From Amphibalanus amphitrite (Eukaryota; Arthropoda; Thecostraca; Balanomorpha; Balanidae), in assembly GCF_019059575.1 (NCBI RefSeq), contig NW_024882313.1:124001-188000 (forward strand): a stretch of DNA of 64,000 bases. Reading direction: 5' to 3'. Shown here one piece after another: positions 16,201-19,200 of the stretch (its first letter is position 1; each line of letters starts with the position of its first letter). The position numbers and the translations under genes are program-made. The notes below the pieces were generated by a model. The model ran no database searches. It saw nothing but the letters and a program-made list of their open reading frames with translations, and was not told the origin of the DNA.

Positions 16201-19200
16201 TCCGTCCACTACCACGGACACGCCTCTCCCGGCTGGCCTCTCCCCGATCGGACCTTCCGCGAGCCTCTGCGTAATGCGTGCCTACGCAGCCGGTGAGCAA
16301 TAAGGGATCACAACGGTACGAATGGAGCATGGTGGTCGTTATTTTTAGCGACATTCATCCGCTACTTTCGGTAGGAAAAAACATGCCTTTTTATAGGAAA
16401 CATATGCCTCGGACATAGAAGTGCGATCCCGTGTCGAGCGTGCCTGAAAAACTGTGATGAAAAAAAAACTGTGTTCTAACTCAGAGTGAAAAACTTTATA
16501 ACGTACCACACTCCTTGCATTAGACACATATTGTTGCTGTTTGGTGAGCTCGAGAAACTCAGCCGGTACATTCATGCAGTCATTCGAGTGGCTCACAGTG
16601 GCTGATACCCGGGGTCTGGGGATCATTTGTAAGACACATAGATTGGAGCTCGGAGCTGAGTCATCACGAGCACGATTGCCGTCAACGATAGTCATAACGG
16701 AGGTCAGGGATCAGCTGTGATGTTCGAACTCCAGGACGCGATGGTCTGTGTCTTCTCACTCCGATGGTCTATTTAGAACTCACCGATATAGTCTGCGCTA
16801 AATTCACCGATGGTCTGTGTCAAACTCACCGATGGTCTGTGTGAAACTCAGCATTGGTCCGTGTCGAACTCACCGATGGTCCGTGTCGAACTCACCGTTG
16901 ATCTGTGTCGAACTCACCGATGGTCTGCTCAAACTCACCGATGGTGGTCAGCACAGTGGAGGAGAAGAACACGGAATGTATGTAGGTCCACTTGTACTTG
17001 TGCACCGGCTGCCCGGGCGTCACGTCCACGCCCGAGCGAACCGCTCGCAGCAGCTCGGTCTCGTACTCCTGTAGCAGGCTCCTGACGGTGAGAGGAATAG
17101 GCTGTGAGAAAAGTTGCCACGGTGACAGAAATCACGGCCGGAGGCATAATTCACTGAAGTGAAAGAAGTGCGAGAGTGACGGGACGTAACAGAGACAGTG
17201 ACGCCACGGAGGTCACAATAGAGCACAGTGAGACTAATATCTCATATCTGTGATGAGTCGATGACTGATGTTCTAGAAAGGGCACTACATGATAATTTTG
17301 TATGACAACTTTTCTCGCCGTATTACGGCGAATAATACTTGCTCCGTTCACCACATTGCGACGGTCCGGGTGAACGTTTTGGTGGTAATGCACATGCAGG
17401 TGCTTCCTTTATAAAATGTGGGCCGTTTGGAGCCGTTTGGACGAGTCCTCCTTGCGGTCGACTTAGTTGTCCTAAGGTGAAATAAAGTCCGCAACGCTGA
17501 TGGCCGATAAAATTGACACACTTCATGATATGTTATTAGTTTTTTTACCAGGACTTTTTTTAAATATGACAAGTTTTCTAACATCTGGAAATGTGAGGCC
17601 AATCTCCTTCCAGTGGATATTATCTCCATGATAATCGCATATAACCAATGACCCCATTCTTTCACCAGCTTCTGTGACGGCCGGAGATTAAACAATAGTT
17701 GACAGATCACATTTGTCACATCGATTAGACGATGCCGGCTGATGGACGAGCTCTCTCGGCCGGTCGCCGTTCGCGACTCAGTCCACAGAAGGAGCTGCTA
17801 GTGGCACACTCATCACCGCCTCAACACTCACTATTGGCACGGCACTGCGGCACGCAATCGCTTCAGTCAACCCAGTCAGCCAATAAATCAGTCAGACGGC
17901 CAAAGACGATAAAATGGCGAATATGAATCACAATCATCTGATGAGAAAGGTAGTCACTATCGTTGCCGGTGATTAGCATATAAATGTTTCGGCTTCATGA
18001 GAACGCTGTTATAGAAGCGACCATCGTTTAAAAAAGGTTACAAATATCTAGTTGAAATCGTAAATGAAAGAGACTACCCACTCCATATTGCACAATATGA
18101 GCTATGAAACTATAAAAAGTCATGTCTGGCAGCCCTCTATATAGACTTGTTGGAGAATGGCGTACTTGTTTGACACCTAACCCGCGCCCCGTTGGGCTCT
18201 GCCGAGCAACGCGCCCCGTTGGGGGGGGGGGGGGGGCATTTTGGCCCCCCTAAGATCTCGAGAACCACGCAACCTAGCGACAAGCGGCAAACGGTGTTGG
18301 ATAGCCCTATCAGGGAACTACCTTGTGACCCAATTTTATTGACCTAGGTCAAACCAATGACGTCACAGGTCAGGTCAAAGGTCCAATTTTCACCGTTTAC
18401 AGGCATTTCAAGAAATGCGTTGTAAAATCGAGTAAAATGCATTTCATTGAAAATCATCGATAGGGAAATGTTCTTCAAACACATATTTTGCTATTTGAGG
18501 TCACTGATACCAGGTCAGGTCACAGAGGTCAGGTCACGGGGGGTCACAATATGAAAGTGTCGTGTGATGCATGTTTTATGGTCCATTTTACATGACGAAT
18601 GCGATTATGTGGGTCAGGCAGCCTTTGGGGCCAGCTTAGGTCACGTTTTGGTCAAGGTCAGGTCAAGGTCAGGTCAAGGTCAGGTCAAGGTCAGGTCAAG
18701 GTCAGGTCAAATTAGGTCAAATTTCAAAGTTAATATTTTTGCATAAAATGGGTACCTATCGAATCGATGCAGCTCGTCACGGGGAGATCAATGGTGGTCT
18801 TTGTTTTGCCGTAAGTGGTCTAGAATCGCTAAAAATTGAGTTCAAAAATTTGACATCATCATTTTTGAACAGTTTTTTCGCTATAACTTGGCCAAAAAAC
18901 GAGATATCGATCTGAAATTTGGTATGTATATAGAAGAGCGCAGGGACTATCACATATATTCCGTTTTTTTTTCGAAATTCGGAAAATTTTTGGATTTTTT
19001 TAAAGTTTTTCTAAAAAAATCATTTTTTTGATTTGTTGGGGGTCAAAAACCCAAAATTTTGAAAATCAGAGATAGCAATTTTGTAGCGCCGCTTTTTGTC
19101 TACTAGACCATATAAAGAACTTTGAAATTGCTTGATAACTGTAGATTTGGTGAGCGTTTCAAGATTGCATGTTTTTTGCTCATTTTTGCTCGAACATGAC

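Follow-up and report, generated by a model that had tools for sequence, protein, structure and literature searches.

In Amphibalanus amphitrite, intron 3 of a two-pore-domain (K2P) potassium channel gene opens with a minisatellite whose repeat unit joins the last seven bases of exon 3 to the 5' splice site that follows them. The gene lies on contig NW_024882313.1 (assembly GCF_019059575.1) within a stretch of 64,000 nucleotides, positions 124,001 to 188,000, which is called the window below and in which all coordinates are counted; the gene and its array are on the minus strand. We think it likely that a stretch spanning the splice junction was duplicated, that the resulting array then drifted, that splicing takes place mainly at the donor farthest upstream, and that the array is mostly neutral or a mild brake on channel output. 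The array is most likely a tolerated accident.

The channel gene and its array

The assignment of the gene to the K2P potassium leak channels is read from its predicted protein. When exon 3 (17081-16939), exon 4 (6043-5657) and exon 5 (5312-5176) are joined, they form a single open frame, TTIG|YGNMAP...TTIGFGDFVP..., which contains both pore-loop filter motifs that mark a K2P channel, TTIGYG and TTIGFGD. Exon 3 encodes SLLQEYETELLRAVRSGVDVTPGQPVHKYKWTYIHSVFFSSTVLTTI-G and stops inside the first selectivity filter (TTIG|YG; ...VLTTI-G), so that a glycine codon is split in phase 1. Exon 4, which comes after CGTCCCGCCAG, begins GT TAC GGT AAC; it completes the split glycine, continues with YGNMAP (GYGN) and runs through the second filter, TTIGFGDFVP. 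Exon 5 encodes ENSEYMLVCTLYILVGLALTTTIIEIVRRQYA... in a frame continuous with exon 4. The Pfam domain Ion_trans_2 recognizes the exon 3+4 join (176 residues) in two stretches with 102.5 bits (cutoff 22.5), and a search of solved structures (PDB) with the same join puts K2P chains on top, TASK2 being the best (E 1.3e-25) and KCNK3, 2, 9, 10, 4, 1, 13 and 6 chains appearing lower down. Taken alone, the exon 3 protein gives a weak match to K2P chains (E 0.0006 at best), and the 79-residue open frame containing it reaches 17.6 bits, under the cutoff.

The end of exon 3 is fixed by protein homology and frame rather than by RNA: the exon ends ACCATCG at 16939 and the real donor, GTGAGT (16933..16938, donor G at 16938), follows directly, as the initial annotation had placed it. 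The frame of exon 4 is consistent with use of this first donor, and intron 3 so defined measures 10,895 nt. An intron in the filter glycine may be a conserved feature of K2P genes; among the titles listed by a literature search none was on this. When the minus strand above 16000-17000 was scanned for motifs and for hydrophobicity, there was no convincing candidate for the exon encoding the first transmembrane helix, and scans for bacterial promoters and terminators and for tRNAs were uninformative.

Tandem Repeats Finder (TRF) reports the minisatellite at 16739..16945 with a period of 22, 9.3 copies, 77% matches and a score of 203. The array thus reaches 7 bases into exon 3, and the start of the intron is taken up by about nine degenerate units of about 22 bp. 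The junction reads ACCATCG|GTGAGTTTGA..., and the units contain a version of the exon's last 7 bases followed by the donor, ACCATCG recurring in register upstream of the decoys in intact or altered form. Counted from the real donor, the units start at +0, +21, +43, +65, +87, +109, +131, +155, +179 and +201; as cut, the first is 21 nt long, those at +131 and +155 are 24 nt long and decay is severe in the last two. The real donor retains GTGAGT, as do five decoys: +21 (16912..16917), +43 (16890..16895), +65 (16868..16873), +109 (16824..16829) and +155 (16778..16783). At +87 (16846..16851) the GT is lost (CTGAGT), +131 (16802..16807) is weakened to GTGAAT, the unit at +179 is shifted and weak, and the last one, at +201, is decayed and its donor dead. 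Such crowding is confined to this place in the window: GTGAGT occurs 16 times on the minus strand (6 of them within the array) and 11 times on the plus strand, and a 200-bp stretch begun at any GTGAGT outside the array cluster contains that one copy only.

All seven exon bases are matched in register, the match with the unit consensus ending at the eighth base, which is C in the exon and G in the unit. The same comparison at 258 other donor-like sites (GTGAG, GTAAG or GTAGG in the window, outside the array) gave a match of 0 bases at 192 sites, 1 base at 48, 2 bases at 14 and 3 bases at 4. Because no other site exceeds three bases, the junction of exon 3 and intron 3 is the probable seed of the array. 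The likely source is the exon and the repeat its copy, since the ACC ATC G region encodes the TTIG filter residues that, in alignments, are common to distant K2P channels. We propose that a stretch across the junction was tandemly duplicated into the intron, grew to about nine units and then drifted. The initial annotation, which saw a minisatellite that had amplified a real K2P splice site and several units with a full GTGAGT, is borne out on both points; it counted about eight imperfect 22-bp copies in the intron, and the first spacing proves to be 21 and not 22.

Donor choice and its predicted products

By the measures applied here, several donors of the array are equal. Duplex energies with U1 were computed for the U1 5' end over positions -3 to +8 (11 nt). 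They come to -9.4 at the real donor and likewise at +21, +43, +65, +109 and +155, a value equalled or bettered by 0.5% of the 7,436 GT sites counted on the two strands of the window, those of the array among them; +131 and +179 give -5.6 and -5.4. Since the 9-mer TCGGTGAGT is the same at +0, +21, +65, +109 and +155 (+43 differs by one base on the exon side), no nine-base donor model is able to separate these five sites. If the donors are told apart at all, it must be by exon context or by position, since predicted RNA structure offers no distinction. Competition between equal donors, which the initial annotation had suggested, can fairly be inferred from the identical U1 pairing energy at the real site and the five decoys. 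A candidate explanation in which RNA structure masks the decoys found no support: the 301-nt fold has a z of -1.31, an equal or better fold was reached by 9 of 100 shuffles, and the real donor ranks among the sites of lowest accessibility.

What splicing at a decoy would produce depends on the register of the array. Use of the +21 donor would insert GTGAGTTTGAGCAGACCATCG and keep the frame, because the first spacing is 21 and not 22; the product, TTIG-EFEQTIG-YGNMAP, carries the added residues EFEQTIG inside the first filter. Among the nine unit positions from +21 to +201, +21 alone leaves the frame open and the other eight lead to an early stop. Splicing from +43 shifts the frame and meets a stop at nt 7 of exon 4, while the seven later units (+65 to +201, dead ones included) all run into an in-frame TGA at +44 (16892..16894). 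A rerun with exon 5 added covered seven of the nine positions, leaving out +87 and +201, and placed the stop 377-519 nt ahead of the exon 4/5 junction for +43, +65, +109, +131, +155 and +179. Stops placed in this way before an exon junction are the usual setting for nonsense-mediated decay, which would be expected here by the general rule. Two arithmetical claims of the initial annotation are thereby overturned: one decoy unit does not add 22 nt and shift the frame, the first decoy being in frame at +21, and three units add not 66 nt in frame but 65, with a product that stops.

These elements suggest how a repeated splice junction could be borne by the gene. The spliceosome would mainly use the donor farthest upstream, which is that of the defined exon, as is described for the array in intron 7 of the human factor VII gene (F7), and a minor share of splicing may leak to the decoys. 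Leakage to +21 would put the insertion TTIG-EFEQTIG-YG into the filter and probably yield a non-conducting or dominant-negative subunit, whereas transcripts spliced at later decoys would carry early stops and should be cleared by nonsense-mediated decay. The array would therefore be mostly neutral, or at most a mild brake on output. Tandem duplication of a splice junction, tolerated because the upstream donor would win, is the mechanism with the best support.

Several points weigh against this account. Upstream-donor use is assumed here by analogy, and the F7 rule on which the analogy draws was described for mammals. The real donor is no more accessible in the predicted fold than the other units (unpaired 0.12 versus 0.11-0.53). 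Older in vitro work on a duplicated donor reportedly found that, when both copies are equal, splicing can favour the downstream copy, which would predict much mis-splicing in the present case. Finally, the confinement of the unit to this locus, considered below, holds for a window of 64 kb.

The same equality of donors could also be read as function. Copy number might act as a rheostat, the decoys capturing U1 and diverting pre-mRNA to stop-containing products so that the number of repeats sets the dosage of the channel. Five decoys do match the real donor in U1 pairing, every tested unit past +21 gives a premature stop (for the six followed into exon 5, well before the exon 4/5 junction), and the tandem-repeat polymorphism HVR4 of F7 intron 7 does vary in repeat number, with alleles H5, H6 and H7 (PMC3166910). 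Against this, only the most upstream F7 donor is said to be used normally (PMC6627357, citing Borensztajn et al. 2006), and the meta-analysis of the F7 alleles gives a marginal odds ratio for coronary disease of 0.88 (0.78-1.00) and concludes a lack of association (PMC3166910). We regard such a rheostat as unlikely.

Still less probable is that +21 is a tandem donor in regular use and that the gene thereby makes a second form of the channel, in which 7 inserted residues repeat T-I-G before YG. This decoy shares its 9-mer with the real donor, provides the sole open frame among the nine units by virtue of its 21-nt spacing, and yields a product that Pfam still recognizes with 90.6 bits versus 102.5 for the normal join. 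However, a random offset falls in frame one time in three, and residues inserted between pore helix and filter would be expected to disturb the coordination of K+. A combination of these two ideas seems equally improbable: a splice ladder whose in-frame first rung, 21 nt away, would make the TTIG-EFEQTIG-YG channel and whose higher rungs would make poison products, copy number and donor competition jointly setting the amount and kind of channel.

Decay of the units and other repeats in the window

Under the tolerated duplication that we favour, the units would simply have drifted. The alternative, that selection has been removing decoys one by one, starts from the donors lost or weakened at +87, +131, +179 and +201. 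The first two are the donor-killing changes (CTGAGT and GTGAAT) in which the initial annotation had seen possible selection against decoys; the changes are real and the selection is not apparent. In a hand alignment of the seven decoy units from +21 to +155 (the first unit and those at +179 and +201 being left out and the inserted bases of +131 and +155 removed), donor positions +1 to +6 depart from the consensus in 2 of 42 cases, as compared with 18 of 112 for the 16 remaining positions (p = 0.10), a difference in the direction opposite to decoy removal. With two variable columns dropped as well, the comparison becomes 2/42 versus 12/98 (p = 0.23). The count is weak, and the left-out units at +179 and +201 have both lost a good donor. 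The proposal that decoys are lost more quickly than other parts of the unit change is thus unsupported, donor positions changing no more than others. Moreover, three of the four decayed donors lie in the last four units, as expected for decay at the far end of an array, and stepwise removal of decoys has very little to commend it.

An origin as a dispersed 22-bp satellite that landed by chance next to exon 3, which the initial annotation had allowed for, seems very unlikely: the window is indeed rich in repeats (43 arrays, merged by hand from 68 TRF rows, covering 13.6% of it), but the unit holds the 7 exon bases in register and, in the 64 kb searched, is found at the array or the real junction only, the full 22-mer with at most 3 mismatches giving 4 matches, all inside the array (expected 0.01), and ACCATCGGTGAGTT with at most 1 mismatch giving 5, all at the array or the real junction (expected 0.02).

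Other repeats lie within the same gene. Exon 5 ends ATACAG|GTGAGAGAAAGAGAG, and a GA microsatellite begins at about +3 of its donor (5045-5175, minus strand), which makes this a second intron that opens with a repeat. A rule that the donors of this gene abut arrays was considered and set aside as a curiosity: two of the three located donors do so (16939 and 5176, not 5657), and the chance of at least two in three is about 0.05 at 13.6% coverage if positions are taken as independent. Intron 3 also contains two arrays with units of about 15 bp, at 7287-7918 and 9281-9928, one of which (CAAAATATCGAAACG) looks like the reverse complement of the other (TTCGATATTTTGCT).

Elsewhere in the window, a 152-bp array with 98% matches occupies 56789-60801; its two blocks run in opposite directions and adjoin at about 58082. 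A repeat-like stretch between G and C runs covers 18200-19380 and includes a short GGTCAAGGTCA array (18638-18723). At 34667-36898 the minus strand holds a stop-to-stop frame of 744 residues, which includes a transmembrane-like segment (LMLFLALGVVLSLTAVLGVALVAVLVHRRRRRRR) and perhaps represents a separate receptor-like gene.

Comparison with known repeats of splice sites

The nearest known relative of the K2P array is the one in F7 intron 7. HVR4 is a 37-bp array in that intron. In both genes the tandem array starts at the real donor, which sits in the first unit, and later, highly homologous units carry the donor motif; in the K2P gene five of these are equal to the real donor and four are lost or weakened. 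On these two features the K2P array, judged by its sequence, belongs with the F7-type donor minisatellites. The genes themselves are unrelated, and the F7 unit measures 37 bp whereas that of the K2P gene measures 22 (the first 21). Also unlike F7, the first K2P decoy is in frame and falls inside a selectivity filter, and the K2P case is known from one sequence. In a limited literature search F7 intron 7 was the one comparable donor minisatellite found in print, and others are possible; the available part of PMC3778950 contains nothing on the F7 repeat.

Two further classes of splice site share part of this arrangement. In human UBC and VCX3A, a tandem repeat has multiplied dual-specific splice sites, whose AGGT core serves as both donor and acceptor (PMC10809524). 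The multiplication of splice signals by a tandem repeat is common to those genes and to the K2P gene; unlike them, the K2P repeat opens an ordinary long intron, its units carry CGGTGAGT or decayed forms of it, and none of the ten units examined contains an AGGT core. Tandem alternative 5' splice sites likewise have a second, equal donor a few nucleotides downstream and in frame, as at +21, but in the K2P gene this second donor arose by growth of a minisatellite, and more decoys come after it.

An array of equal donors amounts to a natural experiment on how the spliceosome selects one of several identical 5' splice sites. An independent case, in another gene, with 22-nt spacing and identical 9-mers, would test how general the upstream preference described for F7 is. 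The outcome should be unusually readable in the K2P array, where a single decoy preserves the frame and every other unit tested leads to a stop.
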